Shown: positions 5,451-49,925 of the stretch, piece by piece
How the letters are laid out: every line of letters starts with the position of its first letter
How positions within the stretch are numbered: position 1 is the stretch's first letter
NCBI GenBank assembly: GCA_943736015.1
Contig: OX031073.1
Span: forward strand, 23,897,210 to 23,961,209
Source: Tridacna crocea
Lineage: Eukaryota; Mollusca; Bivalvia; Cardiida; Cardiidae
Reading direction: 5' to 3'
DNA: 64,000 bases
Notes under the pieces: generated by a model
Databases searched by the model: none
What the model saw: only the letters and a program-made list of their open reading frames with translations
What the model was told of the DNA's origin: nothing
Translations under genes and position numbers: made by a program

Positions 5451-5735
5451 TGAACTTTAATGACCCCGTGGAAAAAGCATTTTGAAAATGTTGTGAGAAA
5501 AATGAGAAATGCTGGCAATCAGCATTAATGTTAAATCTCCTTTTCCTACAGTGTTTTCTACCTTTACCTTATCAAAGAGGAGTTCCAACAATGAGTCACA
5601 TTTATATAAATTTATCTCTGCAAATGCCTACAATTTGGAAAAGTCTACATTTTCTCATTTGGTAGCGATCAATTCAAAACAGCATTTTCTTCTATTCCCA
5701 CAAATTTTTCAAAAGCCTTCTTTGATGTTGTTAAC
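5450..5735 (+). mobile_element. TTAA-hairpin family A copies, degenerate
   Basis: A decayed copy (about 5450-5672) has a disrupted hairpin loop. It is followed by a right-half scrap with CCCACAAATTTTTCAAAAGC. Confidence 0.55.
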
Positions 5736-5955
5736 TCTTTACAAAATGAAAACATTTTAGATTGGTCAAAATTAAAAGTATTTGCAGACACAAAAGTAAA
5801 AGTGACTGAAAATTTGAAATTTGTTTTGTAAAGGGTAGAAAACATTGTGGGAAATGGAGAAAATGCTGGTTGACAGCATTTTCTCCATTTCCCACAATGT
5901 TTTTCAATGGCATTTTTCTCAAGGTCGTCAAAAGAAGGGATTGTGTGGTAATGGT
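5735..5955 (-). mobile_element. TTAA-hairpin family A MITE with paired arm change
   Basis: It is 221 bp long. Both arms carry the same matched variant (AAATGGAGAAAATGCTGG and CAGCATTTTCTCCATTT), so the stem still pairs. Its right TTAA (5956-5959) is shared with the next copy. Confidence 0.9.
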
Positions 5956-5959
5956 TTAA

Positions 5960-6180
5960 CCCATTACCACACAATCCCTACTTTTGACGCCCCTGAGAAA
6001 GAAGCCTTTTGAAAACACTATGGGAAAAGGAGAAAATGCTGGTAACCAGCATTTTCTCCTTTTCCCACAGTGTTTTCTACCCTTTCCAAAACAAATTTCT
6101 ATTTTTTAGTAACCTTCATTTTGTCGTCTGCAAACGCTTTCAATTTGGACCAGTCTAAAATTTTCTCGTGTGGTAAAGAG
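5960..6180 (+). mobile_element. TTAA-hairpin family A MITE, full length
   Basis: It is 221 bp, in opposite orientation to its left neighbour, with which it shares one TTAA. The arms are of the ACACT/AGTGT subtype. Confidence 0.9.
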
Positions 6181-6352
6181 TTAAAACTCCAGATTGACTG
6201 GTATAAGGTTAAAAAGTAATCATCATTCAAACAATATTCACTTACCTCTAATGTAGTCAGCTCTCTTTCTAGCACCACTCCTTCCTTCTTTCCATTTTGA
6301 TGGAAATTCATTGTTTTTCATCAATACTTCATTTTGATACAAGTCAGTTTAA

Positions 6353-6553
6353 CCCTTTACCACACAGTCCCGAGTTTTAACGACCCTAAGGAGAAGGCCT
6401 TTTGAAAACATTGTAGGTAAAGGAGAAAATACTGGTTACCAGCATTTTTTCCTTTTACCACAATGCCTTCTACCCTTTCCAAATCAAATTTCAATTTTTG
6501 AGTCACATGCTTTCAATTTGGACTAGTCCAAAATTTTGTCGTTTGGTAAACAG
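6353..6553 (+). mobile_element. TTAA-hairpin family A MITE, short
   Basis: The TTAA sites are intact (6349-6352, 6554-6557). About 20 bp are missing from the right half between the hairpin and the terminus. Confidence 0.85.
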
Positions 6554-6588
6554 TTAAAGTCAATTGATTTACAAAGTTTAAACTTTAA

Positions 6589-6807
6589 CTCTTTACCAAA
6601 TGACAAAATTCTAAACTTGTCCAAATTGGAAGCACTTGCAATCCACGCAATAAACTTAATTCAAAAATTAAAATTTGTTCCAGCAGGGTAGAAAACATTG
6701 TGGGAAAAGGAGAAAATGCTGGTTACCAGCATTTTCTCCTTTCCGCACAATGTTTTCAAAAGACCCCTTTGCCAGGGTCGTGAAAACCAGGAATTGTTTG
6801 ATAATGG
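6589..6807 (-). mobile_element. TTAA-hairpin family A MITE
   Basis: The left TTAA is intact. The right site has drifted to TTGA. The hairpin is well kept. Confidence 0.85.
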
Positions 6808-6857
6808 TTGAGGCAAAGAAACAATCAACAGAAACATAATGACAGCTTGTTTTGTCC

Positions 6858-7035
6858 TTTACCTCACAAACCCACCTTCGAATAATCCTGATGAAAAAGG
6901 CATTAGAAAGCGCTTTTGGAGAAAAGGAGAAAATACTGGTAACAAGCACAGTTTTTCCTTTTCCGACAATGTTTTCTGTCCATTGTAAGACGATTCACAA
7001 CAGAGTCATATTTGATTTGCTGTTGGCGAATAATT
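6858..7035 (+). mobile_element. TTAA-hairpin family A MITE, decayed
   Basis: The hairpin is partly disrupted (ACTGGTAACAAGCACAGTTTT) and the termini are poorly kept. Confidence 0.55.
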
Positions 7036-7039
7036 TTAA

Positions 7040-7265
7040 CCCTTTACCAAACAATCCCGAGTTTTAACAATCCTGAGAAAGAATTTAGGCTTTTAAAAAC
7101 ATTGAGGGAAAAGTAGAAAATGCTGTTTACTAGCATTTTCTCCTTTTCCCACAATGTTTTCTGCCCTGTCAAAGACAAAAATCATCACTTGAGCGACCTT
7201 TTTATTTGTCATTTGCAAATATTTTCTATTTGGTGGAGTCAAAAATTTTGTCATTTGGTAAAGAG
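7040..7265 (+). mobile_element. TTAA-hairpin family A MITE, full length
   Basis: It spans 226 bp between TTAA 7036-7039 and 7266-7269. The hairpin centre has drifted to CTGTTTACTAG. Confidence 0.85.
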
Positions 7266-7291
7266 TTAAAATATCAATACAGTACTTTTAA

Positions 7292-7513
7292 CCCTTTCCC
7301 AAACAATCCCTGGTTTTTACGACCCTGAGATAGAAGCCTTTCGAAAACATTGTGGGAAAAGGAGAAAATGCCTGTAACCAGAATTTTCTCCGTTTCCCAC
7401 AATGTTTTCTACCCTGCTGGAAACAAATTTCAATTTTTGAGGTATGTTTATCAGTGTCATCTGCAAGTGCTTTCAATTTGGACCAGTCCAAAATTTTGTT
7501 GTTTGGTAAAGGG
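7292..7513 (+). mobile_element. TTAA-hairpin family A MITE, full length
   Basis: It is 222 bp with left site TTAA and right site ATAA. Single mismatches lie near the hairpin centre. Confidence 0.85.
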
Positions 7514-9569: not shown

Positions 9570-9962
9570 TCCTTTACCACACAATGACAACTTTTTATGC
9601 CCCTTAACCCATTACCACACGAGAAAATTTTAAACTGGTCCAAATTGAAAGCATTTGCAGACGACAAAATAAAGGCGACTGAAAAGTTGAAATTTGTTCT
9701 GGGAAGGGTAGAAAACACTGTGGGAAAAGGAAAAAATGCTGGTTACCAGCATTTTCTCCTTTTCCCACAGTGTTTTCAAAAGGCTTCTTTCTGAGGGGCG
9801 TCAAAAGTAGGGATTGTGTGGTAATGGGTTAAGAAGAAGCCTTTAGAATACATTGTGGGAAAACGAGAAAATGCTAATCACCAGCAATTTCTCCTATTCC
9901 CATAATGTTTTAAAAGGCTTCTTTTTCAGGGTTGTTAAAAGTCAGGATTGTGTGGTAAAGGG
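9570..9962. mobile_element. family A element made of two left halves, hosting an inner copy
   Basis: The outer element begins TCCTTTACCACACAATG and ends GGATTGTGTGGTAAAGGG, so both ends are of the left type. Both sides of its hairpin carry the GAAGCCTTT-type flank. An inner full-length copy sits in its left half. Without the inner copy and one TTAA the length is about 168 bp. TTAA sites flank it at 9566-9569 and 9963-9966. Confidence 0.75.
9608..9828 (-). mobile_element. TTAA-hairpin family A MITE nested in another copy
   Basis: It is 221 bp between TTAA 9604-9607 and 9829-9832. Removing it plus one TTAA restores GCCCCTTAAGAAGAAGCC, close to the family sequence GCCCCTGAGAAAGAAGCC. The arms are of the paired ACACTG/CAGTGT subtype. 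Confidence 0.9.
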
Positions 9963-12537: not shown

Positions 12538-14124
12538 CTCCACAAAAAAATTAAAGGGTCAAGTACAAAGTGTGAAAGCGAATACATCAACGTAGATTTA
12601 TTAGAAAACAAAATATGGCATTCAATTAAAGAACTGTTTGATATCATTGTTAGGTATAAATTTCGTCTTAAAAAGTAGAAAGTCTTACCACAATTCTTCG
12701 TTAGACACGACCACCCTCCAAAGTAGGGGTGCCAGACAGGGTGGGTGGGGTAACAAAAGCAATACACTAATCATCCAACGGTATGGGTTTTTATTCAAAA
12801 TGTAAGTTGGCACTGCGTGTGTCCACCACGCGCATTAATCACTTCCTGGCATCTAAGGGGAAGCTGAGAATTAACCTCCTTATGTCTGCAACTGGTATTT
12901 GGTGCCATTCTTCAACCAGGAAATTTGACAACTCCTCAGCTATCCTTGGTTGCCGAATGCGGCTGGATAATCGGCATTGAAGAATGTCCCAGGCATGCTC
13001 TATAGGATTAAGGTCTGGCGACCTTGCTGGCCAGTCCATCCTTTCGATACCCTCCTGCTCGAGATACTGATTCACCACTCTTGCACGGTGTGGTCTTGCA
13101 TTGTCGTCCATCAGAATGAAGCCATGACCGCATGCTCCAGTGTAAGGGCGTACAACAGGTCTAGGACTTCGTCTCTGTATCTAACATCGGTCAGGGCCCC
13201 ATTTCTAATGACGTACAGGTCCGTACGTCCATCTAGGGATATGCCAGCCCATACGATCACTGATCCCCCACCATATCTGTCGTGCTCTGCCACACACCAA
13301 TCATGGAAATGCTCATTTCTCTGTCTCCACACTCGTCTGCGCCCGTCATTGAAATCCAGATTGAATCTTGACTCATCCGACCACAAAATGTTACGTGAAT
13401 GTTGAGGTCCAAGTTGCACATGATCATGGGCAAACACAACACGACATCTGCGATGGTGTGGGGTCAAGGGTGGTCGCACCACCGGTTTTCTGGCCCACAG
13501 GTTTGCTGCATGAAGTCTGTTCCCAATGGTTTGAACAGAGATTCTGTACCCATATGTCTGTTCGAAGTCTCTGTTGAGCATAACTGCCGAGTCAAAACTT
13601 CGACGCCCAGCCATCAGACACAAACATCGGGCCTGGGCCTCAGTTGTGACCCACAAACGACCTTGACCTTGCCTCCTTTGAACATCTCCAGTGTCTAGGT
13701 ACAATTGCCACAACCTGCCGATTACACTCTGGCTGACATTAAACTCTGCTGCAACATGACGTTGAGTCTGACCAGCTAGGAGACATCCAAGAGCACGCTG
13801 TCGCTCATTTTGAGACAAATGGCGTCTTTGTGGCATTTTCCTCTTATGTGGTTGAAATTTGAACTTGCTTGAGTGAAAACAGCTTTTAAAAGAAACACTG
13901 ACAGATAGAAAGCATTTTGGTGCGGCCATCTCGTGCAATTTGAAAACTGGTTTTGATACCTATCTATACCAATTCATTCAACCGTGACCATGTATTCTCT
14001 AAATGATTTTAGCTTCTTTGCTTTCTATGCCAAAGAGTCTAAATTTTCATTTTCGTATTTTGTTTGAAAATTATTTGCAGTTTCAAAAAAGTTATATATA
14101 TGACCCTTCAATTTTTTTGTGGAG
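12538..14124 (-). mobile_element. Tc1-type DNA transposon, inactivated
   Basis: Inverted ends of 24 bp (12538-12561 and 14101-14124; CTCCACAAAAAAATT then AAGGGTCA) match with one mismatch. They enclose a minus-strand DD34E transposase frame broken by one frameshift. About 1.59 kb is usual for Tc1 elements. No clean TA duplication directly abuts these repeats, so the true tips may lie slightly outside. Confidence 0.88.
12839..13836 (-). pseudogene. Tc1-like transposase, frameshifted
   Basis: The start ATG at 13836 begins MPQRRHLSQNERQRA, typical of the paired helix-turn-helix DNA-binding half. VGDVQRRQGQGR-like linker sequence follows (residues about 50-60). The first catalytic Asp lies in WSDESRF (residue 154). 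The first frame runs to a stop near 13111 (241 codons). The second frame opens with MDDNARPH (second Asp) and holds SPDLNPIEHAWD (Glu), 34 residues between the two acids, the DD34E spacing of Tc1. A one-base loss near 13121-13122 explains the break. Combined length, about 331 residues, is normal for the family. A longer upstream frame to 13938 is open but unlike transposase. It would cut and paste its own element at TA sites if intact; as it stands it should not give a full protein. Confidence 0.92.
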
Positions 14125-15099: not shown

Positions 15100-15157
15100 T
15101 GTAAATCCTTTACCAAACAGATTTGATGATATGTTTCAGCGATATGTATTTTAATGA
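15100..15157 (-). mobile_element. family A terminal fragment
   Basis: Only the right terminus type (AATCCTTTACCAAACAG) and a few following bases remain. Confidence 0.45.
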
Positions 15158-15161
15158 TTAA

Positions 15162-15381
15162 ACACACAATGACGCCTTTAACGACCCTGACAAAGAAGCC
15201 TTTAGAAAACATTGTGGGAAAAGGAGAAAATGCTGGTAACCAGCATTTTCTCCTTTTCCCACAATGTTTTCTATCCTTCCCATAGCAAATTTTAACTTTT
15301 CAGGCACATTTATTTTGTCGTCTGCAAAATTTGAATGCTTTCAATTTCAACCAGTCAATAAATTGGTCATTTGGTAAAGAG
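15162..15381 (+). mobile_element. TTAA-hairpin family A MITE, 5' end eroded
   Basis: The hairpin arms are perfect. The first bases after TTAA 15158-15161 read ACACACAATGACG, so part of the terminus is lost. The right TTAA is 15382-15385. Confidence 0.85.
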
Positions 15382-15394
15382 TTAATGATGTTAA

Positions 15395-15615
15395 CACTTT
15401 ACCATACAATCCCGACTTTTAACGACCCTGAAAGAGAAGGCTTTGGAAAACATTGTGAGAAAAGAAGAAAATGCTGGTAACCAGCATTTTCTTCTTTTCC
15501 CACAATGTTTTCTACCCTATCAAAGGGAGAAATTATCATTTTAGCAATATTTTATTTGTCATCTGCAAGTGCTTTCAAGTTGGATGAGTCCAGAATTTTG
15601 TTGTGTTGTAAAGGG
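15395..15615 (+). mobile_element. TTAA-hairpin family A MITE with paired arm change
   Basis: It is 221 bp between TTAA 15391-15394 and 15616-15619. AAAAGAAGAAAATGC pairs with GCATTTTCTTCTTTT, a matched variant. Confidence 0.9.
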
Positions 15616-15619
15616 TTAA

Positions 15620-15845
15620 GGAGAAAAGCATTTGAAAATATTTTGGAGAAAAATATTTTCTCCATTCCCGCCCCCCCCCCCCCCCCCCACCCCCTCCCCA
15701 CCTCCACCCCCTCCCCCCCACCCCCTCCCACCCCCCATGTTTTTTACCGATTAAAAAACATTCATATCATCACATGACCAATACTTGATTTTATTCTCTG
15801 CCAAAGCTTTCAAATTAAAAAAAAAAAATGTCACATTGTACAGAG
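15620..15845 (+). mobile_element. family A MITE with a C-rich expansion in the hairpin
   Basis: Element flanks are visible (AAAGCATTTGAAAATATT, CATGTTTTTTACC, GTACAGAGTTAA). In the right arm the CTCC..TTCCCAC segment is replaced by a C-rich tract at 15669-15737, broken only by A and T. Confidence 0.65.
15669..15737 (+). repeat. C-rich low-complexity tract
   Basis: It is almost pure C with scattered A and T. The minus strand is G-run rich and could form G-quadruplexes. Confidence 0.9.
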
Positions 15846-17470: not shown

Positions 17471-17533
17471 TCCTTTACTACACATTTCGACTTTTGACGA
17501 CATTGAGATTGAAGAGCTTGTCCAGGTCACAGC
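17471..17533 (+). mobile_element. family A left-end fragment
   Basis: Sixty-odd bases of the left end lie between the shared TTAA 17467-17470 and the TTAA at 17534. Confidence 0.55.
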
Positions 17534-17537
17534 TTAA

Positions 17538-17761
17538 CCCTTTCCCAAATTTTGACAAATTTTAGACTGTCCCAAACTCAAAGTGGTTGCAGATGACAAT
17601 TTTTGCATTTGGTGAGAATGGCAGAAAGTTTTCCGATAGGATAGAAAACACTGTGGGAAAAGGAGAAATTGCTCGTTACGAGCAATTTCTCCTTTTCCCG
17701 CAATGTTTTCTAAAGACTTGTACTGCAGCCAAGTAAAATCCTAGATTTGTTTGGGAAAGAG
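17538..17761 (-). mobile_element. TTAA-hairpin family C MITE
   Basis: TTAA flanks (17534-17537, 17762-17765). Termini are CCCTTTCCCAAA and TTTGGGAAAGAG. The stem carries AAACACTGTGGGAAAAGG as in family A, but the inner part is AGAAATTGCTCGT / ACGAGCAATTTCT. CTTGTACTGCAG marks the left flank side. Confidence 0.88.
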
Positions 17762-17765
17762 TTAA

Positions 17766-17960
17766 CCCTTTCCCAAATGACAAATTTTAGACTGTCCCAA
17801 ACTCAAAGTATTTGCAGATGACAATTTTTTTCCGATAGGATAGAAAACACTGTGGGAAAAGGAGAAATTGCTCGTTACGAGCAATTTCTCCTTTGCCCAC
17901 AATGTTTTCTCAAGACTTGTACTGCAGACACGTAAAAACCAGGGCTTGTTTGGGAAAGAG
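17766..17960 (-). mobile_element. TTAA-hairpin family C MITE, second tandem copy
   Basis: It directly follows the previous copy, sharing TTAA 17762-17765, and is nearly identical but about 29 bp shorter before the hairpin. The right TTAA is 17961-17964. Confidence 0.88.
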
Positions 17961-17964
17961 TTAA

Positions 17965-18160
17965 TGGTTAGCGTATCTGACAGGTGACCTGCAGGCTGCA
18001 GGTTCGATAACCAGTTGCAGCGAACTTGCTTTATGGCGATTTTTCACCTTTCACTTCTGGTGCATCTAAGAAAAGACGTCAGTGACTTCAGGGAAAAAAA
18101 TTTGTGTAGGTACTGATAATTTAAACACTGATCACTGAAACCGACATAAAACCCACATAA
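17965..18160 (+). mobile_element. tRNA-derived SINE
   Basis: ATGGTTAGCGTATCTGACAGG and GCTGCAGGTTCGATAACC look like a tRNA head. The body CACCTTTCACTTCTGGTGC matches the SINE at 55853. The 3' part is diverged. Confidence 0.65.
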
Positions 18161-19506: not shown

Positions 19507-20415
19507 AAAATTCTGAGAAGAATTTTTAAGAATTTCTTCATGTCTGTAGAGTGTAAATAGCCCACAGCCATCAGAGCCATGATTCTTGATGGATCAAAAT
19601 TTCTAGAGCAATTTTTGAAAAGGGTCAGCCAAGAAACATTTCTGTGAAATTATTTCAAAATCTGAACAGCCTTTTCAGAGAAAAAGAATTTCTTCATGGC
19701 CACATAGTGCATGTAGCCCCCATTCACCAGAGCCCTGTTTCTAGACAAATCAGCATTTTGCCAACAATTTTTGAAAAGGGTTACCAAAGGAACATTAATT
19801 TTCTTTCAAAATCTGGTCAGCCGTTTCAGAGGAGAAGAATTTTAAAGAATTTCTTCATGGCCATATAGTGCGAGAAGCCCCCATTCACCAGAGCCATGTT
19901 TCTTGATGGATCAAAATTTAGCGAACAATTTTTGAAAAGGGTCACCCAAGGAACATGTCTGTAAAATTATTTCAAAATCTGACCATCAGTTTCAGAGAAG
20001 AAGAATTTTTTAAAGAATTTCTTCATTTCCCTATAGTGCAAGTAGTCACCTATTCACCAGGGCCATGTTTCTTGACAGATCAAAATTTTGGGAACATATT
20101 TTGAAGGAACATATCTGCGACATTATTTCAAAATCTGACCAACGGTTTCAGAGGAGATGATTTTTAAAGAATTTCCTAGAAAATTCTATTTGGTTGCCAT
20201 GGCAACCAGAGTTTTTGATGGAATCAAATTATGTGAACACTTTTTAAAGAGGATCTCCAAAGGAACATTGGAGCCAAGTTTGGTCCAAATTGGCCAATCG
20301 GTTTAGGAGGAGTTGATGTTTAAAGAATTGTTGACGATGCACGACGCACTGCAACGCACGACAGACACCGGATGACCTAAAAGCTCCCCTTGAGCACGTT
20401 GTGCTCAGATGAGCT
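19507..20415 (+). mobile_element. Helentron/HINE-like element with tandem core
   Basis: Units of about 150 bp (AAGAATTTCTTCATGGCC, CATTCACCAGAGCC, GAACATxTCTG) repeat about four times. ACGACGCACTGCAACGCACG and hairpin GAGCACGTTGTGCTC, then AGATGAGCTA, form the end. No 5' hairpin is seen, so the left end is truncated. Assignment is inferred from architecture. Confidence 0.6.
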
Positions 20416-20932
20416 ACAAACGTTCACCATTCAGGTTGTAATATCTCTTTTTTTTCTGTACTTGGTAGACGCTAACTACCCATCATTATCACCAGATTTC
20501 TCACCTTTTATACATCTGTGATAATGTGTGAGGAAAAGATTGAGAATCAAGCATGCCACACAAATCCTTGAGTCTCTTTATAGTAAAACTTAGCAGCCAC
20601 TAATATTAACCCCCAGAGTGCCAAATAAATCCTGAAAACAGTTTTCGATCTAGAAATAAGACAGATTGATTGTATGATGTTTCACACAGTTTTGAACATT
20701 ATTTCAGCTATATAGCAGCACCCAGGGCACCTATCCATGCTTCTTTTACCTGCATTCTCCACAATATTCTGGCTGCATTCCTGATATAACCATTGTCTAA
20801 ACAATTTGTCAGCCTTGAAAGAGGAACAAATCCTGTCCAAATGACTATCAACGATCCTTGGGAAAAAAATTGCTGTGGATGGAACCAGCAACTCCATGTT
20901 CTGAAGTTTTGAGCCCGTATTCACCAACCAGT

Positions 20933-21090
20933 GTTGAGAATATTGTAAGTCTTGTACTCAGAGGTTTTCTAAATTTGTAAGTAACACAACCTCTGATTGG
21001 CTAAACTGAATGGTTTAGCCAATCGGAAGTTGTGTTACTTACAAATGTAGAAAATTCTGGAGAATAAGACAAAGAAAGTTTTTGAGAATG
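20933..21090. repeat. long inverted repeat
   Basis: Arms of about 42 bp (TTGTAAGTAACACAACCTCT and partner AGTTGTGTTACTTACAA) face each other around TGAATG, with GATTGGCTAAAC / GTTTAGCCAATC at the tip. Outer sequence pairs weakly. Confidence 0.85.
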
Positions 21091-21094
21091 GTTC

Positions 21095-21158
21095 ATGACG
21101 ACGGATGGTGAGTGATCACAATACCTCCCTCTGCGCACTTCGTGCTCAGGTGAGCTAA
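21095..21158 (+). mobile_element. HINE-like 3' end fragment
   Basis: GACGGATGGTGAGTGATCAC, hairpin GCACTTCGTGC and CAGGTGAGCTAA match the terminal sequence of the elements at 44310 and 53061. Confidence 0.6.
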
Positions 21159-21304
21159 TGACAGGGCTATAACACTATCTAAAACCAGAGGTATTAAGTA
21201 CCGACTGAGCTATTGGGTCTCGCCTTTAAGAATTAAGTCCAATATAATCGTAGATTAAAGTTTTCTATAGATTACAATAATGTCTAAGCAAAGAAGACAC
21301 ATCA

Positions 21305-23115
21305 ACAAGAGGGCCATGATGGCCCTGTATCGCTCCACTGGCTAATTCGTAAAAACACTACAAGCCAAACATTATATTATTTGGCCAACTGGTTTCAAAC
21401 TTGAGGGCATACAATTTTTTTCCATAAAAACAAACAAAAAAGTTGTGACCCCTGGGCAAATCCAGTTTTGACCACAAAGCTATAATTACTTGAATCCTGG
21501 TGGAGGTCTACAATGAATGAATGAATAGTGTTTTAAGGCCCGTCGACAACTTGGGTCATATTGGGCGCACTTACTTAGTAAACAATAATGTGAGGTGAGA
21601 ATAACATACATGTCAAACAACACAAGACAAACATGATAAATGAGGAATGGATGAAACACAAAATGATGTCCCTTTTGTTGCCTTTTACGACATGCATGCT
21701 GTCACTTTTGTTCTGCCAGATGAAATGGCAGATGTGGCGATCGCGGGACTGCAGTGGTTTATTCTTATACCCCCGATTAAACCACACGGGGTCCCACAGG
21801 CCAATTGATTCTCATTCCAAACCCTATTTACGTCAAGAAAAAAATATAGGATTTGGAATAAGAACTACCCAGCCTGCTGCAATCCTACGAATTACGAAGA
21901 AAGCAGCCGTTTGTCTCTAATTTTAGTTGCCTTCTACGACATGCCATAGAGAAAGGCCGAAGTCCTATTCTATACAGTAAAAACCCCCGGGACACCACGG
22001 GGAGGAGGTCTACAAGATAAAGCCCCATACCAAATAATACAGGTCTAGAATGTGTGGTTATAAACAAGAAGATTTTCAAAGTTTTCTCAATAAAAGGCCC
22101 TGTACAACATAAAATCCATGAGACAGGGCTAAATTTAGTGGTCCTAGTCTTTATAATGGTTAGTAACAAGATGACTTAGAAAGTCTTCATCATAAAAGCC
22201 TATGTAAAACTTGTGACCCCTGGTGTGGGGACAAACTTAACCCTAAGGCTATAATTTGAGTCCTCCTGGTAGAGGCCCACTAGATAAAGCTACATGCAAA
22301 ATTTGGTAGCCCTAGGCCTTATAGCTAGGTACAAGTAGATTTTTAAAAAATTTCCAATATGAGCCCATGTAAAACTTGTGACCCCCAGGACAGGGCCAAA
22401 TTTGACTCCAGGGCTACAATTTGGGCACCTTTGGTAGACAACCACTTGATAAAGCTAGATGCAAAATTGAGTAGCCCTAGGCTTTATGGCTTGGTACGAA
22501 AAGATTTTTAAAGTTTTCACTATATAAGCCCATGTAAAACTTGTGACCCGGGGCCGGGCCAAATTTGACCTCTGGGCTATCATTTGGGCACTCTGGGTAG
22601 AGGTCTACTAGATAAAGCTACATGCCAAATTTGGTAGCCCTTGGCCCTATGGCTAAGTACCAGAAGGATTTTAAAGTTTTCCCTGTATAAGCCTATATAA
22701 AACTTGTGACCCCCGGGGTGGGGCCAATTTTGACCCCAGGGCTAATATTTGAAGGAACTTGGTAGAGGTCCACTAGATAAAGCTACATGCCAAATTTGGT
22801 AGCCCTAGGCCTTATGGTTTCAGAGAAGAAGATTTTTTAAAAATTTCAATATTTTTCAGTTTTGTTGCCATGCCAACCAGAGTTTTTGAAGGAATAAAAT
22901 TCTTTCAAGGAATTCTGAAGAGGACCATGGCAGGATTATTTCTGTGAAGTTTCATCAAAATTGGATGGGTAGTTTCAGAGAAGAAGATGTTTGAAATAAA
23001 AGTTAACGGACGCACTGACGGACGCACGCACGCATGGACGGACGGACGGACGGATGCACGACGGACACCTGGCCATGACATAAGCCAGCTGGCCTTCGGC
23101 CAGTGGAACTAAAAA
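21305..23115 (+). mobile_element. Helentron/HINE-like element with tandem core
   Basis: It starts ACAAGA, then hairpin GGGCCATGATGGCCC. The core repeats about 155-bp units (CATGTAAAACTTGTGACCCC, GATAAAGCTACATGCxAAAT). It ends with hairpin CTGGCCTTCGGCCAG then TGGAACTAAAAA. TCCACTGGC (21334) pairs with GCCAGTGGA (23099), a subterminal inverted repeat. A retroposon is inserted at 21514. Class is inferred. Confidence 0.65.
21514..22003 (-). mobile_element. retroposon with 12-bp target duplication
   Basis: GGAGGTCTACAA flanks both sides (21502-21513, 22004-22015). The plus-strand start TGAATGAATGAATAG is a simple tail, so the element lies on the minus strand. Inside, GTTGCCTTxTACGACATGC occurs twice. 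No reverse transcriptase frame is present; a SINE or short LINE 3' end is possible. Confidence 0.7.
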
Positions 23116-23290
23116 TCATATTTTATGTTTAGTGCAGTCTGACCTTGATCTACACTGACAGGAACAGTAATTTTAGTGGTCCTCCTTCCATGATGTTCCA
23201 AAATACTTTCTTTTCAGGGTCATAAAAGTCATGATGGAGCTGTAGACAGTAAATGAAGTAGGGTCTTTCAAAATGACAAAGCACCATTAA

Positions 23291-23512
23291 CCCATTACCA
23301 AACGACAAAATTTTAGACTGGTCCAAATTTAAAGCATTTGCAGACGACAAAATAAAAGTGACAGAAAATTTGAAATTTGTTTTGTGAAGGGTAGAAAACA
23401 TTGTGGGAAAAAGGAGAAAATGCTGGTTACTAGCATTTTCTCCTTTTCCCACAATGTTTTCTGAAGGCTTCAAACTGAGGGGCGTCAAAAGTGGGGATTG
23501 CGTGGTAATGGG
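23291..23512 (-). mobile_element. TTAA-hairpin family A MITE, full length
   Basis: It lies between TTAA 23287-23290 and 23513-23516 (222 bp). The left arm has an extra A (GGGAAAAAGGAG). Confidence 0.9.
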
Positions 23513-23516
23513 TTAA

Positions 23517-23737
23517 ATAAGTGTTTCAGAAATGCAAACTGCCAGTAAAAATTAGAGGTAATCTCTGATCGCTTTACATCATACATAATAATTTATGTCT
23601 TTTTGAAATTTAAGAACTCTCTCGTAGCTATGGCAACCATTTGATAGAATACCAAATGACAAAATGACTTGCGTCATCAAGTTACCATATCAATTATGAA
23701 ATGTTAACAGTTTACCATTTACCTAGCTTTAAACCAT
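23517..23737. other. non-repeat AT-rich stretch, no gene
   Basis: No open frame, splice context or repeat was recognised. Confidence 0.3.
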
Positions 23738-23740
23738 GAG

Positions 23741-23967
23741 CTCTTTACCAGACGACAAAAATTTTAGACTGGTTCAAATTAAAAGCATTAAATCTTGCAG
23801 GCAACACTTTAAATGTAGCTGTAATGATTTTAATTGTCTGTGAAAGTGTAGAAAACCCAGTGTGAGAAATGGAGAAAATGCTGGTTACCAGCATTTTTCT
23901 CCATTTTCCGCAGGATTTTCCAAAGGCTCATTACGTCAGGTACATTCAGAATTGTGTAGTTTAAAGT
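23741..23967 (-). mobile_element. family A MITE with matched arm variant
   Basis: AAATGGAGAAAATGCTGG faces CCAGCATTTTTCTCCATTT, so the variant T is matched on both arms apart from one extra T. Left site TGAG, right TTAA 23968-23971, shared with the next element. Confidence 0.8.
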
Positions 23968-23971
23968 TTAA

Positions 23972-24193
23972 CCCTTTACTCCATAGATACTCATTTCTAC
24001 ACATTGCTTGTATGAGCCTTTGGAAAACATTGTGGCAAAAGGTGAAATTGCTCGTCACGAGCAATTTCACCTTTTGCCACAATGTTTTCTATGCTATCAA
24101 AAGGTGTCATTTACACGTAAGAAATGGCTTCATCCTTGCTGTCATTTAGAGTCAATTAGAGATGCCATAGAATATGCCTTATGGGGTATAGGG
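23972..24193 (+). mobile_element. TTAA-hairpin family B MITE
   Basis: The termini (CCCTTTACTCCATAGATACT; right end GGTATAGGGCTAA) and inner stem (AACATTGTGGCAAAAGGTG, AAATTGCTCGT) differ from family A. Length is 222 bp and the hairpin sits at the same place. It directly abuts a family A copy through TTAA 23968-23971. Confidence 0.88.
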
Positions 24194-24380
24194 CTAAGTG
24201 CTGCATTAACCCAACCATTACTTTTGTTCTAGAAAAAAAGACCAAACAAATGCAACTTTTATGGTTGTTTTTATCCAGAAATATATATAGCAAGGTGGAC
24301 ATTGTACATCCGACTCAACATAATTGAAATTATATAATTGCTTATACAGTTTGTCTTAGCAAAGTGCACAATATAGAACA

Positions 24381-24415
24381 AAGATCAGACTGCATGTTTT
24401 ATGTAGTCTGGTGTT
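24381..24415. repeat. dispersed short palindrome, half
   Basis: AGATCAGACTGCATG faces ATGTAGTCTGGTGT; it is a shorter relative of 2435. Confidence 0.55.
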
Positions 24416-24465
24416 AAATGATCTATCTATTCCGGCCTGAAAAAGAACTAAATTTTCCAAAAGCC

Positions 24466-24624
24466 ACCCTTTACCAAACCAAAAGTTTAAGCCTGGTCCA
24501 AACTGAAAGACTTATTTTCAAAACAGAAGGAACCTCAGACAATAAGATTTGTCTTCAAAACAATAGAAAACATTGCAGGAAAAGGAGAAAGTACAAGCAT
24601 TTTTTCCGTTTACGAGCCATGTTT
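24466..24624 (-). mobile_element. family A MITE, decayed
   Basis: CCCTTTACCAAACCAAAAG, GCAGGAAAAGGAGAAAGTAC and TTTTTTCCGTTTACG survive. The right end runs into TTAA 24625-24628. Confidence 0.6.
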
Positions 24625-24628
24625 TTAA

Positions 24629-25207: not shown

Positions 25208-25212
25208 GTTTA

Positions 25213-29370: not shown

Positions 29371-29633
29371 ATATTTGTCTTTTCCTGTGCATGACATAAA
29401 TTTATTATGCATGAACATCATAGGTAATCATGTGGCCTCTAGTGTGGAAGGTAGTGACTGTTTTTCTTTTTATGGCAGAATATATTACAGCCAAACTTTT
29501 TGACAAATCAAATAACAAATCAATGCATGCTTATAATCTGTGCGCAAGATATTACTCTCAGACGATAGCAGTGTCTTTTTAGGGTCGACTGACTTCATAA
29601 TTGTAGGGGAAACAGGTATTCCTCACAACTTAA

Positions 29634-29854
29634 TCCTTTACTCCATAGATACTCATTTCTACGCATTGCTTGTAGGAGCCTTTGGAAAACATTGTGGCAA
29701 AAGGTGAAATTGCTCGTGACGAGCAATTTCACCTTTTGCCACAATGTTTTCTACACTATCAAAAGGTGTCATATACACATAAGAAACGGCTTTATCCTTG
29801 CTCTTATTTATGGTCAATTAGAGATACCATAGAAATGCCTTACGGGGTAAAGGG
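29634..29854 (+). mobile_element. TTAA-hairpin family B MITE, full length
   Basis: It is exactly 221 bp between TTAA 29630-29633 and 29855-29858. The arms are perfect around CTCGTGACGAG. Confidence 0.92.
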
Positions 29855-31518: not shown

Positions 31519-31558
31519 TCACTGATTTCAAAATCTTAGACCTCTGCCCAAACAATAA

Positions 31559-31778
31559 CTCTTTCCCGAACAACGAAATTTTAGATTGGTCCAAATTGAA
31601 AGAATTTCAAGACCACAAAATTAACATGACTCAAAAATTGAAACCTGCTATGGGAGGCTAGGAAACATGGCGGGAAAAGGAGAAAATGCTGGTTACCAGC
31701 ATTTTCTCCTTTTCCCACCATGTTTTCAAAATTCTTCTTTTTCAGGGTTGTGAAAACCAGGGATTGTTTGGGAAAGGG
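31559..31778 (-). mobile_element. family A MITE with paired arm change
   Basis: Left site ATAA, right TTAA 31779-31782. GAAACATGGCGGG faces CCCACCATGTTTTC; ATGG/CCAT is a matched change. Confidence 0.85.
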
Positions 31779-31832
31779 TTAATAGCATCTTCAAACAACA
31801 TACAAGATATGGTTAAAACTACAAGATCATCC

Positions 31833-35066: not shown

Positions 35067-35779
35067 ATCTCATATGTCCAATTTAAAACTTTGGGTGAAG
35101 CAACATAGCATACTTGGTGTCAAACAAGATTTGAGACTAGCACTTAGCTGGTTCCAGTTATACCTGTGATAATGACATCATGAATGATGTCAACAATAAT
35201 GTAAAATGTTATGAAATTCATTCATTTTCTATAAATATCTGGGGTATATCAAAAATAAATATATTAAAATTTATTTCATCGAGTGAACATCATTCGTAAT
35301 ATTTTCACAAGTGGCACAGCCACGATCGAAAATATGACCAATGATGTTCAAGAGATGAAATAAATTTAGATTTTTCACAGCAAAAAACTCCCACAAATAT
35401 TCTATTTATTTCATGTTTTAAACCCTTTCTAGGAAGAACTTTCTTTTCAGTTATTCCCCATGGCGTACCCCTTCTGCATAACAACACACTAAGATTTTAC
35501 GCCAATGGCAAGAAATGTATGGTAAATTAAGTCATATTTCCATCTGGTTGTAAGGCATGCGCATTTCACCTAGGTAACTATTGCAATAAACTAGTGCACG
35601 GGAACAGCCATTTTCACCTTCAATGGAAGAGTCAGAATATAGAAATTAGTATTTTCACTGGTCAAAAGCACAAAATATCGAAATATATTTCACTGATATT
35701 GCTCGATAACCTTCTGGAAAGCATGGAATAGAACATAATAATTATATTCTTGCATGAATACTCTGTTACTTTATAGATA
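35067..35779. other. non-repeat stretch, no gene
   Basis: AT-rich with a few CpGs. ATGATGTCAACAATAATG and its surroundings show no coding or repeat pattern. Confidence 0.35.
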
Positions 35780-38027
35780 ACAAGAGCGGCAAACTGTCGC
35801 AAGATACGCCCGTCTTACCCCAAGTTGTAAAGCTGGGGCATGCATCGGACAAAATTCAATAATGAAAAACAAGAAAGGGAAATAACTCAAAAATTAAGCC
35901 ACAAACAGTTATGATTCCTGTGCACTGCACTCACCCTTGATGAGATCTATCCAACCCTGAAATTTCATAACCCTAGCTAGTATAGTTTTGGAGATATGCT
36001 CCAGACAAAATTGAAGTATGAAAAACAACAAAGGGCAATAACTCAAAAATTAAGTGAGCAAGAGTTATGATTCCTGCACACTGCACTCCCCCTCGATGAG
36101 ATTTATCCACCCATGAAATTTCATAACCCTAGCTAGTATAGTTTTGGAGATATGCTGCGGACAAAATTCAAGTATGAAAAACAAGAAAGGGCAATAACTC
36201 AAAAATTAAGCGAGCAAGAGTTATGATTCCTGCGCACTGCACTTCCCCTGTATGAGATCTATCCACCCATGAAATTTCATAACCGTAGCTGGTATAATTT
36301 GGAGATATTCACCTGACAAAATTCAAGTATGAAAAACAACAAAGGGCAATAACTCAAAAATTAAGAGAGCAAGAGTTACAATTCCTGCGCACTGCACTCC
36401 CCCTCCATGAGATCTATCCACCCATGAAATTTCATAACCCTAGGTAGTATAGTTTTGGAGATATGCCCCGGACAAAATTCAAGTATGAAAAACAACAAAG
36501 GGCAATAACTCAAAAGTTAAGTGAGCAAGAGTTATGATTCCTGCGCACTGCACTCCCCCTCCATGAGATCTATCCACCCATGAAATTTCATAACCTAGCT
36601 AGAATAGTTTTGGAGAAATGCCCCGGACAAAGAACTGGACGCCGCCCGCCCGCCCGGACGCCCGCCCGCCACGGGTGATCCCATAATACGTCCCATCTTC
36701 GACGGGCGTATAAAAATGACAAAGGGCAGTAACTCAAAAATTAAGCGAGCAAGAGTTATGATTCCTGCGCTCTGCACTCCCCCTTGATGAGATCTATCCA
36801 CCCATGAAATTTCATAACCCTAGCTAGTATAGTTTTGGAGATATTCACCAGACAAAAATCAAGTATGAAAAACAACAAAGGACAATAACTCAAAAATTAA
36901 GCGAGCAAGAGTTATGATTCCTATGCATTGCACTCCCCCTTGATGAGATCTATCCACCCATGAAATTTCATAACCCTAGCTAGTATAGTTTTGGAGATAT
37001 GCTCCGGACAAAAATCAAGTATGAAAAATGACAAAGGGCAATAACTCAAAAATTAAGCAAGCAAGAGTTATGGTTCTTATGCACTGCACTCTCCCTTGAT
37101 GAGATCTATCCACCTATGAAATTTCATAACCCTAGCTAGTATAGTTTTGCAGATATTCACCGGACAAAATTCAAGTATGAAAAACGACAAAGGGCAATAA
37201 CTCGAAAATTAAGCAAGCAAGAGTTATGATTTCTGTGCACTGCACTCCCCCTTGATAAGATCTATCCACCCATGAAATTTCATAACCCTAGGTAGTATAG
37301 TTTTGGAGATATTCACCGGACAAAATTCAAGTATGAAAAAAGGACAAAGGGCAATAACTCAAAAATTAAGCAAGCAAGAGTTATGGTTCCTGCGCACTGC
37401 ACTCCCCCTTAGTGAGATCTATTCACCCAAGAAATTTCATAACCCTAGCTAGTATAGTTTTGGAGATATGCTCTGGACAAAAATCAAGTATGAAAAACGA
37501 CAAAGGGCAATAACTCAAAAATTAAGCAAGCAAGAGTTATGGTTCTTATGCACTGCACTCTCCCTTGATGAGATCTATTCACCCATGAAATTTCATAACC
37601 CTAGCTAGTATAGTTTTGGAGATATGCTCCGGACAAAAATCAAGTATGAAAAACGACAAAGGGCAATAACTCAAAAATTAAGCAAGCAAGAGTTATGGAT
37701 CCTGTGCACTGCACTCCCCATTAGTGAGAACTATTCACCCAAGAAATTTCATAACCCTAGCTAGTATAGTTTTGGAGATAGGCTCCGGACAAAATTCAAG
37801 TATGAAAAACGACAAAGGGCAATAACTCGAAAATTAAGCAAGCAAGAGTTATGATTTCTGTGCACTGCACTCCCCCTTGATGAGATCTATCCACCCATGA
37901 AATTTCATAACCCTAGGTAGAATAGTTTTGGAGATATGCTCCGGACAAAGAACTGGACGCCGCCCGCCCGCCCGCCCGTCACGGGTGATCCCATAATACG
38001 TCCCGTCTTCGACGGGCGTATAAAAAT
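35780..38027 (+). mobile_element. composite Helentron/HINE-like element with 13 tandem units
   Basis: It starts ACAAGAGCGGC. About 155-bp units (GGGCAATAACTCAAAAATTAA, GAGTTATGATTCCTGCGC, CATGAAATTTCATAACCC) repeat 13 times. A terminal module (CGCCCGCCCG, then CCCGTCTTCGACGGG, then CGTATAAAAAT) occurs twice, at about 36635-36717 and 37955-38027. TACGCCCGTC (35805) pairs with GACGGGCGTA at 36701 and 38011. Class is inferred. Confidence 0.7.
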
Positions 38028-42815: not shown

Positions 42816-43055
42816 TGCTTATAAAAACAAAAGATTTTTTGGGTACAGGAATGAAAACCCAAAGTTTCACATTTCTGTAATTTCCTGTGCATTGCCTGTG
42901 ATTTCAGTGGTCGTATTTTCTGCACACATTACAAGGAAATTAGAAAAATGTCACCATCTTATGCATGGTTCCTGTACAGTAATGACTCATTAAAGTACAG
43001 TAAATACTGTCTTGGTGACCATTTCTGGTAAATAAGCAACCTATACAGGCATTAA

Positions 43056-43277
43056 CCGTTTACCACACAGCAGAATTTTAGACCTATCCAAATCGAAAGC
43101 ATTTCTATGTGATAATTTCGCAGTGGCTCAAATGAAGCAATTTTTTCTTTGATAGAGTAGAAAACTTTGTGGGAAAAGGGGAAAATGCTGGTTACCAGCA
43201 TTTTCTCCTTTTCCCACAAAGTTTTCAAAAGGCCTCTTCCTCAGGGTCGTTAAAAGTCGTCATTCTGTGGTAAAGGG
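43056..43277 (-). mobile_element. family A MITE with paired arm change
   Basis: It is 222 bp. Left TTAA 43052-43055, right TTAC. GAAAACTTTGTGGG faces CCCACAAAGTTTTC, a matched change from ACATTGT/ACAATGT. Confidence 0.9.
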
Positions 43278-43399
43278 TTACAGAAGCATAATTAGTATAA
43301 TGACAAAAGAAAGAAGACACTGCTAAGATGCATTAACCCCTCTTTTCCCAAAATGCTGCTGAATCAATATGCAAAATCTAACGTGAATTATTAAATAAA

Positions 43400-43600
43400 T
43401 CCTCTACAGACAACAAAATAGAGGCGGTGTCCAATCAAAAGATCTTGCAGACAACAACATTAATTATATGTGACTCACATGATGGTATTCATTTGCAACA
43501 GACAAAAAAAAAACATTGTGGGAAAAGGAAAAAAATGCTGGGGACCAGCATTTTTTCCTTTTCCCATCATGTTTTCAATGGTCGAATCTAACTAAAGGTG
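43400..43600 (-). mobile_element. family A MITE with paired arm change
   Basis: AAGGAAAAAAATGCTGG faces CCAGCATTTTTTCCTT, a matched substitution. The left part is degenerate and duplicated (CAGACAACA twice). Confidence 0.7.
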
Positions 43601-44309
43601 ATACAAGATGGCTGAAAGACAGACAATTCGTCAATGCAAAATTTCCCATTTTCCTTTTTTTCGACATGAATACCATAAATAGGGACACAGTAGACTTGTC
43701 TCCTCTCTTTCTCTACAGCTAATCATTTCCTTAACTAACACAGCTATGACAGTAGCTCTTGCAACAGCCATCATGCCAATGTACGTTCATTTAGATAACG
43801 TTTAGAAAAATGTTCCGAACATGCTCCATTCAGTACATACCTCCGGAACAGTGTATTGTGTTCTGAAATATTCCTTGCGCACATTCCAGAACAGCATTCC
43901 AGAACACAGAACATTGTGCCAGAAGAGGTGAAAGGAATACGCCCCTTGTATCTAAACCGTGCCAGATAGAAAACTGGCAATAACCTAATTACCAATGGCA
44001 GCTATTGGTTGTCATTTTGTACTAAAACAACCAATCAAGCAGCATGAATATCAGAATGCCTTAATTGCTGTTTGAAAATAAGGAAGCAAGATTAATCTGA
44101 TCAGGATTCATATGCCAAACTCGCTAAAACAATTAAAAAATCTTTTGTTAGGGACTTAAGAACTTTAGTTAATGATCTTTGTGAATCAACAGTTTAAATT
44201 TCCAAGTGTAACGCTTTATCCTATTAAATCTGGAAATCCCACAGATTTCTGCTTTGCAGCATCAGGCAGATTTCTGCCTTGCAGAATTAAGTGTTACCTG
44301 TTGATGAGA
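43600..44309. other. unassigned stretch with GGAACA/TGTTCC repeats
   Basis: From 43810 to 43930 several GGAACA, AGAACA and TGTTCC motifs cluster (ATGTTCCGAACATGC). No gene evidence; a minus-strand frame (43771-43995) follows from them. Confidence 0.35.
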
Positions 44310-45484: not shown

Positions 45485-45654
45485 TTAATGGTTTGATAAT
45501 CATAGGATTCAAAGCAAGAAATATTGCTGTGATTCCCCATACGCCTGAAAATAAAGATTTTCAACAAACTGCCTCATATCCAGTACAAACCAATAATAAG
45601 CCAGAAGCTTTGGGATAATTAAAAAGTACTTTCTCTTGGCATGTGCTGCTTTAA

Positions 45655-45875
45655 CCCATTACCACTCAATCCCTACTTTTGACGCCCCTGAGAAAGAAGC
45701 CTTTTGAAAACACTGTGGGAAAAGGAGAAAATGCTGGTAACCAGCATTTTCTCCTTTTCCCACAGTGTTTTCTACCCTTTCCAGAACAAATTTCTATTTT
45801 TCAGTCACCTTTATTTTGTCGTCTGCGAATGCTCTCAATTTGGACCAGTCCAAAATTGTCTCGTGTGGTAATGAG
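45655..45875 (+). mobile_element. TTAA-hairpin family A MITE, full length
   Basis: It is 221 bp between TTAA 45651-45654 and 45876-45879. Arms are the perfect ACACTG/CAGTGT subtype. Confidence 0.93.
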
Positions 45876-45925
45876 TTAATACGCTGGTACAATTGCTTAC
45901 TAGTTCTGTAACACTGATCTTTTAC

Positions 45926-48003: not shown

Positions 48004-48217
48004 ACAACAAAATTTTTACGACTTAAATCATTTTAAATCGTCAAATGACAGTTTTAAATGTGGCTCAAACTCAAGGTATTTGTCTTAAACATTATAGAAA
48101 CATTATAGGAATGAAAGAGATACTGCAGGCTACCTGCATATTCTCCATTTACTACATTGTTTTATGAAAGCCATCTTCCTCAGCTTGCTTAAACACTGGT
48201 TTGTAAGGCAAAGGGTT
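48004..48217 (-). mobile_element. family A MITE, strongly decayed
   Basis: ACAACAAAATTTTTACGAC, GGCTACCTGC and a GGCAAAGGGTTAA end. Confidence 0.5.
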
Positions 48218-48362
48218 AAACCAGATTGTGTCAGTAAATGTAAAAGGACATTTTTCAATCAGTGCTGACATAGTTATAGCAATTTTAAGTCAGGGTGAAA
48301 TCTTTTTATAAGATATTCCACAGATTTCATCTGTTACAAGAAAAAACCCAAGTTTAACTTAG

Positions 48363-48583
48363 CCCTTTACCCCACAAGGCATTTCCATGGTATCTCTAAT
48401 TGACCCTAAATAACAGCAAGGATGAAGTTGTTTCTTATGTGTATATGGCACCTTTTGATAGCATAGAAAACATTGTGGCAAAAGGTGAAATTGCTCGTCA
48501 CGAGCAATTTCACCTTTTGCCACAATGTTTTCCAAAGGCTCCTACAAGCAATGCGTAGAAATGAGTATCTATGGAGTAAAGGG
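48363..48583 (-). mobile_element. TTAA-hairpin family B MITE, full length
   Basis: It is 221 bp. Left site TTAG, right TTAA 48584-48587. Perfect arms around CTCGTCACGAG. Confidence 0.92.
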
Positions 48584-48589
48584 TTAAAG

Positions 48590-48676
48590 GACCTCAGGCT
48601 TTTTAAAAGCATTATAGAAAAGAAGAAAATGCTGGTAACCAGCATTTTCTCCTTTTCCCACAATGCTTTCTATCCT
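48590..48676 (+). mobile_element. family A hairpin fragment
   Basis: Hairpin with AGCATTATAGAAAAGAAG and a good right arm. It lies between two TTAA sites (48584, 48677). Confidence 0.65.
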
Positions 48677-48680
48677 TTAA

Positions 48681-48904
48681 CCAGCTGTACCAAACGACAA
48701 AATTTGGAATGTGACCAAATTGAAAGCATTTGCAGACGACAAATTCAACATTGATAAAATGATGATTTCTGTCTTTGATAGAGTTGAAAACACTGAGGGA
48801 AAAGGAGAAAATGCTGATTACCAGCATTTTCTCCTTTTCCCACAGTGTTTTCCAAAGACTTCTTCTTTAGGGTCGTTAAAAAGCTGGGATTGTGTGGTAA
48901 AGAC
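48681..48904 (-). mobile_element. TTAA-hairpin family A MITE
   Basis: It lies between TTAA 48677-48680 and 48905-48908. Left arm ACACTGAGGG has one mismatch with CCCACAGTGT. Confidence 0.86.
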
Positions 48905-48944
48905 TTAATTTACCAAGCAAATTCAATAACTGCAGATGTTTTAT

Positions 48945-49018
48945 TTGACATCAGCATATGCTTTTAATTTGAATGTATCTAAAATTTTGTACTGTTTTGT
49001 ACATTTGGTAAGGAGTTA
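48945..49018 (+). mobile_element. family A right-end fragment
   Basis: CATATGCTTTTAATTTG to CATTTGGTAAGGAGTTA. Confidence 0.5.
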
Positions 49019-49321
49019 TGCCAAGATCAAACTGCAAAAGAATGGAAATAGCAGAGCCAAGATCGGAAGGAAAATCTTTGGCAATCTGATCTTGATAAAG
49101 TATATATCGTAAACTAAAGCTGCTAGAGTATATATTCCTCATCTCAAAGATCTAGGTTTATTTTGTCATAGGAACCCTAAAAGCACTAAATATTTTCAAC
49201 AACCTATGTTGTGAGTACTGAGACATGAGAAAAACCTCAATTAAGGAATAATATTGTTCTCAGCACCAAAACCTTTGGATTCAATACAAAACTAATTAAC
49301 CTCAATATTTTCCTTATTTAA

Positions 49322-49477
49322 CTCTTTGCCACACAATCCCGACTTTTAACCACCTTGAGAAAAATGCCTTTGGAAAACATTGTGGAAAAGAAGATATTCA
49401 TTTGTACCAACTTTGAAGTTGTGGTCTGTAAAAGTTTTGAATTTGGATGCGTCTCAAATCTGTTATTTGGGAAGGCT
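49322..49477 (+). mobile_element. family A MITE lacking the hairpin tip and right arm
   Basis: TTAA 49318-49321 and TTAC. AACATTGTGGAAAAGAAG joins ATATTCATTTG, removing about 65 bp. Confidence 0.8.
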
Positions 49478-49481
49478 TTAC

Positions 49482-49925
49482 TCTTTACCACACAATCCCG
49501 ATTTTTAACGACCTTGAAAAGGAAGCCTTTTGAAAACATTGTGGGAAAAGAAGAAAATGCTGGTCACCAGCATTTTTTCCTTTTCCAACAATGTTTTCTT
49601 ACCATCCCAAACCAAATTTCAGTTGTTAACCCTTTACCAAACAATCCCTGGTTTTTATGACCCTAAGATAGAAGCATTTTGAAAACATTGTGGGAAAAGG
49701 AGACAATGCTGGTAACCAGCATTGTCTCCTTTTCCCACTATGTTTTCTGCCTCATTAGAAACAAATTTTAATTTTGTTATGTATTTATTTTGTAGTCTCC
49801 AAGTGCTTTGAATTTGGACCAGTCTAAAATTTTGTCATTTGGGAATGGGTTAAGTCACATTTATTTTTTTGTCTGCAAATGCTTTCCATTTGGACCAGTC
49901 TATAATATTGTTGTTTGGTGAAGAG
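49482..49925 (+). mobile_element. family A MITE hosting an inner copy
   Basis: It is interrupted after CAAATTTCAGTTG and resumes GTCACATTTATTTTT. About 220 bp without the insertion. Right site TTAG. Confidence 0.88.
49630..49849 (+). mobile_element. nested family A MITE with paired arm change
   Basis: It lies between TTAA 49626-49629 and 49850-49853. GGAGACAATGCTGG faces CCAGCATTGTCTCC, a substitution matched on both arms. Confidence 0.92.

Follow-up and report, generated by a model that had tools for sequence, protein, structure and literature searches.

The window analysed here, a stretch of 64,000 nucleotides from the bivalve Tridacna crocea (assembly GCA_943736015.1, contig OX031073.1, positions 23,897,210 to 23,961,209 of the forward strand), carries many copies of a short repeated element built around a long hairpin. 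A palindrome scan showed that one 67-bp palindrome, with arms GAAAACATTGTGGGAAAAGGAGAAAATGCTGGT, recurs dozens of times. It consists of two 33-bp arms and a 1-base loop, the arm pairs being numbered inwards from the outermost, pair 0. The flanks of most of 84 hairpin copies align in one pattern (with 42 copies oriented each way by flank similarity), demonstrating that the palindrome occupies the middle of an element of ~229 bp. This element comprises TTAA, a left end of ~107 bp starting with CYCWTTACCA, the palindrome, a right end of ~55 bp finishing with TGGTAAWGGG, and TTAA again. A profile search (nhmmer, threshold >=25 bits) gave 128 hits in the window, whole elements or fragments that do not overlap and that occupy 24,332 bases in all; 101 of these hits contain the whole palindrome. 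A full copy lies at 3752..3990 (plus strand; 254 bits), featuring TTAA-type ends and the perfect consensus palindrome at 3865-3931. TTAA is the consensus at both ends, and exact TTAA is found on the left in 47, on the right in 55 and on both sides in 32 of the 101 copies, while the left end is missing in 27 and the right end in 17.

Miniature inverted-repeat transposable elements (MITEs) of the TTAA type are defined, in a study on coral elements, by terminal inverted repeats of 12-19 bp and a CC[C/T]T terminal motif (PMC2872659). The right end of the present element, CCCTTTACCA, fits this motif; the left-end majority reads CTCTTTACCA, CCC occurs at the left end in a minority of copies, and the subfamilies termed B and C carry CCCTTT there. 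The hairpin family, bordered on either side by TTAA, ending in CCC-type termini and too short to encode a transposase, is best read as a piggyBac-type MITE. Kolobok elements likewise use TTAA, so that this assignment is probable rather than proved.

Matched and one-sided changes of the arms

A preliminary description of the window had singled out copies with substitutions on both arms, proposing that arm changes occur in matched pairs that keep the stem perfect. The eight positions it gave lie no more than 10 bases from element starts in the profile search (5729, 15389, 23734, 31553, 43048, 43400, 49625 and 61773), and the listed variants are indeed present on both arms in all eight copies. 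The plus-strand copy at 5729..5967 (AAATGGAG/CTCCATTT) has a matched A17T and three mismatched pairs, and meets the neighbouring element, 5949-6188, tail to tail; the second AAATGGAG example, at 23734..23969 on the plus strand, combines matched A17T with six mismatched pairs and is widely separated from the first on the flank tree. A one-sided counterpart of this variant is provided by the plus-strand copy at 4498..4733, with A17T on the left arm only. One mismatched pair accompanies matched G19A at 15389..15623 (minus strand; AGAAGAAAA/TTTTCTTCT), matched A6T at 43048..43284 (plus strand; ACTTTGT/ACAAAGT) and matched A23C, a genome-wide subfamily variant, at 49625..49854 (minus strand; AGACAATGC/GCATTGTCT). 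Two mismatched pairs are found both at 31553..31784 (plus strand; ATGG/CCAT, matched T8G) and in a subfamily C member at 61773..62009 (plus strand; ACACAGTG/CACTGTGT, matched T7C, T8A and G30C), and four at 43400..43602 (plus strand; AAGGAAAAAA/TTTTTTCCTT, matched G21A), which also bears an extra A on one arm. The stems of these copies are therefore not perfect, and perfect stems are limited to 12 of the 101 window copies, seven of which are plain consensus, and to 25 of 295 copies in a larger set.

The 101 window copies provide 3,172 arm-pair cells, with 367 one-sided changes, 57 matched changes and 25 non-pairing double changes; in the 295 copies (9,168 cells) the corresponding numbers are 1,179, 187 and 88. 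The premise that ordinary decay would hit one arm only holds in so far as one-arm change is what is mostly seen. A model that takes account of copy age and position rate predicts 23.3 matched changes for the window (a plain column shuffle gives 14.1 instead) and 74.9 for the larger set, both far exceeded by the observed matched changes before correction for ancestry. Divergence by position agrees closely between the arms (rho 0.92), which produces coincident matches by itself. Once families B and C (seven copies) and pair 7 were left out of the window, 29 matched changes remained against 20.8 expected (P 0.05), distributed as 16 against 7.5 in 72 well-kept copies and 13 against 14.2 in 22 decayed copies. 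In the larger set, pair 7 was left out together with 58 B/C-like copies, each bearing at least one of four variants diagnostic of a subfamily; the 237 copies retained have 66 matched changes against 49.1 expected (P 0.012). With rising stem decay the counts in these copies were 19 against 9.5, 27 against 19.9 and, in the 18 most decayed, 20 against 19.5. A register control on the same copies gave an observed-to-expected ratio of 1.19 at register 0 and of 0.73-1.02 at 16 other shifts.

Of the 187 matched cells, 107 belong to five subfamily variants and 121 in total to the excluded copies and pair, and most of the 66 left, ~49, are expected by chance. The count of matched changes against an independent expectation, suggested as a check in the preliminary description, thus reveals an excess over chance that mostly disappears after subfamily removal. 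Ongoing homogenisation of all resident copies was rejected, as decayed copies are at chance in both sets.

The ACACTG/CAGTGT subtype reported earlier is real. Its pairs are mostly confined to one flank clade with a few scattered copies, and it is represented as subfamily A2 by 9598..9835 (plus strand, within the flank clade) and by 45647..45883 and 61090..61328 (both minus strand with perfect stems). The diagnostic pairs of B and C (A25T/G30C, G13C/A20T) are likewise mostly found with their own flanks. Subfamily C includes the plus-strand element at 17531..17766 with matched A25T and G30C, followed near-tandem by a second copy at 17762-17968. Subfamily B includes a minus-strand hairpin at 23966..24102 with matched G13C, A20T, A25T and G30C on a perfect stem, further hairpins with perfect stems at 29629..29764 (minus strand) and 48453..48590 (plus strand), and a plus-strand element at 52574..52807 with one mismatched pair.

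Flank trees were built from copies with enough flank, namely 82 of the 101 in the window and 238 of the 295 in the larger set. On a 276-leaf flank tree, 16 of 20 fetched copies with matched A23C fall inside a 34-leaf stretch, one more (locus L054) is close to it, and the other three, L040, L048 and L051, are placed in different parts of the tree from it, L048 carrying four matched pairs and one mismatch. The A23C-matched copies require 13 changes on the tree, compared with 19.6 for random labels. Most matched variants beyond chance were inherited from subfamily founders. Because the ACACTG, A25T/G30C, G13C/A20T and A23C variants mostly follow flank subfamilies and the most decayed copies are at chance, fold-back copying is not the main cause of matched pairs, and the templated repair invoked in the preliminary description stands as a minor process, indicated by the rate-matched control and the loop inversion described below.

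Probable recopying at pairs 23 and 24 and probable inversion of the loop

Across the genome, an exact 35-base core of the palindrome has 346,909 oriented matches, 173,350 and 173,559 on the two strands, most copies presumably being counted on both. Against this number of consensus matches, one-arm changes are equally common at pair 23 (2,224) and pair 24 (2,235). Double changes at non-partner positions (23 with 24') were counted in 28 elements when both arm assignments were taken together, whereas independence predicts 14.3, half as many. This excess is a measure of age heterogeneity, and half of the 28, ~14 elements, gives the rate-matched prediction for one partner pair. Partner double changes amount to 548 oriented matches at pair 23 and 402 at pair 24, or roughly 290 and 210 elements as scaled from the matches listed. 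Among the 53 elements listed for pair 24, 16 are T-matched, 18 C-matched, 10 G-matched and 9 non-complementary; among the 53 listed for pair 23, 43 are C-matched, 3 G-matched, 1 T-matched and 6 non-complementary.

Matched A23G was found in 19 elements genome-wide, compared with 7 same-letter non-partner elements (P 4e-5). Eighteen of the 19 could be placed on the flank tree, where they sit in many unrelated flanks and require 17 changes, compared with 17.7 for random labels. As a share of one-sided changes at the same place, matched elements make up ~4% (A23G) to ~8% (pair 24), rough values scaled from partial lists, the latter of which may include hidden subfamilies. The genome-wide counts suggest a real matched remainder beyond ancestry and chance, controlled at two pairs, and thus arm homogenisation exceeding independent mutation and ancestry, with A23G backed by the flank tree and pair 24 by counts.

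Turning the palindrome centre around alters only the loop, and template switching or cruciform inversion would therefore be expected to leave a T-to-A loop. Among 117 unselected, orientation-secure copies with intact neighbours, 100 have T as the loop base, 12 have A, 3 have C and 2 have G, that is, 12 T-to-A changes against 5 others, as spacer inversion would leave them. The complement prevails among loop changes, unlike in flank or arm columns, and the excess is significant against both flank A/T columns (P 0.003) and arm columns (P 0.0008). Adding 36 eligible copies fetched for the pair-23 variant gave T 131, A 17, C 3 and G 2 (n=153). In subfamily B the loop is C in 16 copies and G in 2 (7 and 1 of those with enough flank). 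On the 276-leaf tree the loop requires ~28 A/T changes, compared with no more than 26 for an A/T column of the flanks and 13 for one of the arms.

Constraint on the stem and competing explanations

The stem is the best-kept part of the element. In 66 copies selected by their flanks, divergence is 0.066 in the stem, 0.197 in the flanks and 0.165 in the termini, the stem being lower than the flanks ~3-fold on average and in 65 of the 66 copies; within three young clades, stem divergence is 0.25-0.39 of flank divergence. The B and A consensus sequences share 58 of the 67 bases of the palindrome; they differ at four pairs, each time in matched fashion, and at the loop as the ninth difference. Their flanks are identical at 38 of 79 and 8 of 27 positions, hardly above chance. 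Ascertainment was rejected as the cause of stem conservation, which holds in copies chosen by flanks only, and so was CpG or base composition, as the stem remains the less diverged when it is compared with non-CpG columns of the flanks separately for each consensus base. As the stem diverges ~3-fold less than the flanks, it probably matters for transposition, which makes the earlier suggestion of a hairpin selected for transposition plausible, the role itself being deduced from the low divergence.

The palindrome has probably been shaped by constraint on founders, by decay of one arm at a time and by occasional template switching within the hairpin. Source elements keep the palindrome under strong constraint, probably as an aid to movement, and have founded subfamilies already bearing matched changes, as the subfamily structure of most matched variants beyond chance shows. 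Inserted copies decay mostly one arm at a time, as the counts above show. In hairpins whose stem is still well preserved, DNA synthesis may occasionally switch template, which would either copy one arm onto the other, giving a matched change private to that copy, or reverse the centre so that the loop T becomes A. The statistical traces of this switching are shown by the data above, and its enzymology is inferred. A stronger version, in which the palindrome is a functional transposon module, bound or extruded in transposition, more conserved than any other part and evolving in paired jumps because arms are recopied by template switching at a measurable rate, is tentative.

Several results weigh against this account. 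No autonomous partner with matching ends was found among 11 transposase loci read. The 148 non-window copies alone give 37 matched changes against 30.3 expected (P 0.13), which is not significant, and it was in the window that the pattern was first seen. The pair-23 total is dominated by one inherited variant, A23C. Some T-matched pair-24 elements lie close together on contig C2 and may be local duplicates. The pair-24 copies may be independent in view of their spread over three variants; hidden small subfamilies or exchange between elements could mimic recopying. A link between loop inversion and matched pairs, suggested post hoc by five of eight copies, failed in a planned comparison, with loop A in 3 of 19 A23G-matched and 4 of 21 one-sided copies, and no association between loop flip and matched pairs appeared in unselected copies (5/36 and 20/160). 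In yeast, the spacer was inverted without arm change in 9 of 10 genes (PMC8604942), and such inversion alone is compatible with the lack of association here.

Shared ancestry alone, with founders of large or very small subfamilies having carried all excess matched pairs and no recopying in residents, is rather unlikely, even though it accounts for the five subfamily variants that make up 107 of the matched cells, for the concentration of A23C in mostly one flank group, for the most decayed copies being without excess and for the lack of significance outside the window. The termini, ~200 bp apart, are matched as well at one position (T/T 37, A/A 13, T/A 10, A/T 3). Such founders leave unexplained why A23G-matched copies need almost as many changes on the flank tree as there are copies and exceed the non-partner control, why all three matched variants are found at pair 24, and why the loop changes more often on the tree than any flank or arm column. 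Gene conversion limited to the hairpin would keep hairpins uniform and move matched variants between flanks, consistent with the low stem divergence even inside the young clades and with the few matched variants in unrelated flanks; it is improbable, given that the hairpins of B and C are mostly found next to the flanks of their own subfamily and that L040, L048 and L051, the outlying A23C copies, have additional hairpin changes, which clean donor copies would lack.

Both arms may track one protein. If a symmetric transposase dimer binds the palindrome, the arms would change together in source elements, a possibility rated somewhat below even that finds a parallel in paired cysteine-rich domains binding palindromic end sequences in piggyBac and piggyBat, and in identical 19-bp palindromes at both piggyBac ends, as stated in PMC11707139. 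The stem being the most conserved part of the element agrees with it, whereas no transposase is tied to the MITE family, the palindrome of 67 bp far exceeds those of 19 bp in length, constraint is weaker on the termini than on the stem, and loop inversion and scattered private matched pairs are left unexplained. Such co-evolution can hold alongside founder constraint and template switching, as the reason for the constraint. Selection for a hairpin RNA, such as a small-RNA or microRNA-like precursor, is by comparison very improbable. The stem does fold very stably as RNA (-51.7 kcal/mol, z -15), as any such palindrome would, but an Rfam search of the window gave no match, and one-sided changes leaving G-U (115) are not clearly commoner than those leaving A-C (98), giving no clear support for selection at the RNA level. 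The expression as hairpin RNA raised in the preliminary description accordingly found no support.

Abundance, related systems and other repeats

The genome that holds the window comprises 1.05 Gb in 31 contigs. Twenty 10-kb stretches, picked blind by position, hold 221 elements covering 41,072 of 200,000 bases (20.5%), with 2-26 elements in each of the 20 stretches, which extrapolates to ~1.16 million copies genome-wide (bootstrap 0.90-1.42 million). Pattern matches numbered zero in a viral contig collection and one in each of three records of a genome contig collection, the latter taken as chance, and a plasmid collection queried with window positions 20000-28000 only gave no match. An open-access literature search recognised no description of the family, which does not prove that none exists.

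How perfect stems withstand mutation is an old question, usually addressed in a few RNA genes where selection confounds the answer. With about a million copies, presumably mostly neutral after insertion, arm copying and loop inversion become countable against matched controls. If the palindrome is the functional module of the stronger version, the family, with at least 173,000 exact 35-base cores, would serve as an inbuilt record of template switching at hairpins in the germline of a eukaryote. It makes up a considerable share of the ~1.05-Gb genome, and a transposon centre better kept than its ends points to a candidate role of palindromes in piggyBac-type movement.

The nearest parallels include the coral CMITEs, as described in PMC2872659: these are likewise TTAA-flanked piggyBac-type MITEs, their terminal repeats vary more between families than the 75-bp interior does, just as the termini vary more than the stem in the 66 flank-selected copies here, and they also have resident piggyBac-like transposons and tandem arrays. 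They differ in length (~100 bp compared with ~229 bp) and in number (an estimated 1,600 copies in one coral, compared with about a million). Words starting with palindrom or hairpin are absent from that text, and the likeness is one of description. Template switching at short inverted repeats in yeast gives arm homogenisation and spacer inversion, as here, though in coding genes with events placed on strain trees rather than in a repeat family with events deduced statistically (PMC8604942). Template switching also gives rise to RNA hairpins and maintains them, with compensatory stem changes made in a single step by copying of the opposite arm (PMC8794818), again as here, though for RNA genes under RNA-level selection, in contrast to a DNA element without sign of such selection. 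The palindromic sites near piggyBac and piggyBat ends are bound by a dimer of cysteine-rich domains and are 19 bp long in piggyBac and imperfect in piggyBat, according to PMC11707139, instead of forming one long central palindrome. By analogy, dimer binding of palindromes by piggyBac-type transposases may offer a reason for the constraint on the stem.

The piggyBac transposase domain PF13843 has 118 whole and partial matches in the genome, and six of the 11 transposase loci read (L029, L030, L031, L032, L035 and L037) show clear TTAA-CCC ends with other sequence. L035 holds at 873-3755 a piggyBac-type element with 17-bp CCCATTTATGCC ends and asymmetrically inset inverted repeats of 19-22 bp. 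At L038 (C8:24819500-24823700), a diverged palindrome at 1082-1148 shares its outer 12 bases with the MITE palindrome. It sits in an imperfect ~300-bp inverted repeat flanking a piggyBac transposase gene, the other side having one arm only, and this hairpin-like palindrome beside a transposase, followed up as a lead, was dropped once it proved to be an imperfect inverted repeat.

Neighbouring MITE copies in the window abut at their TTAA ends at 5729-6188, 15151-15623, 60301-60771 and 61090-61762, as if inserting into one another's TTAA sites. The left ~76 bp of the MITE recurs at 28861-29190 in each of four 85-bp units arranged in tandem, an end fragment having thus become a small array. Further long palindromes at 20965-21054, 35267-35367 and 62134-62200 are by eye unlike the MITE stem. 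A Tc1-like transposase, apparently frame-shifted, is encoded on the minus strand at 12839-13959 in two overlapping frames with matches to HTH_Tnp_Tc3_2 and DDE_3. Two arrays of a 156-bp tandem repeat, of ~5 and ~8 units, occupy 35846-37949, and separate tandem arrays of similar ~165-bp units are located at 22166-22817 and 53160-53910.

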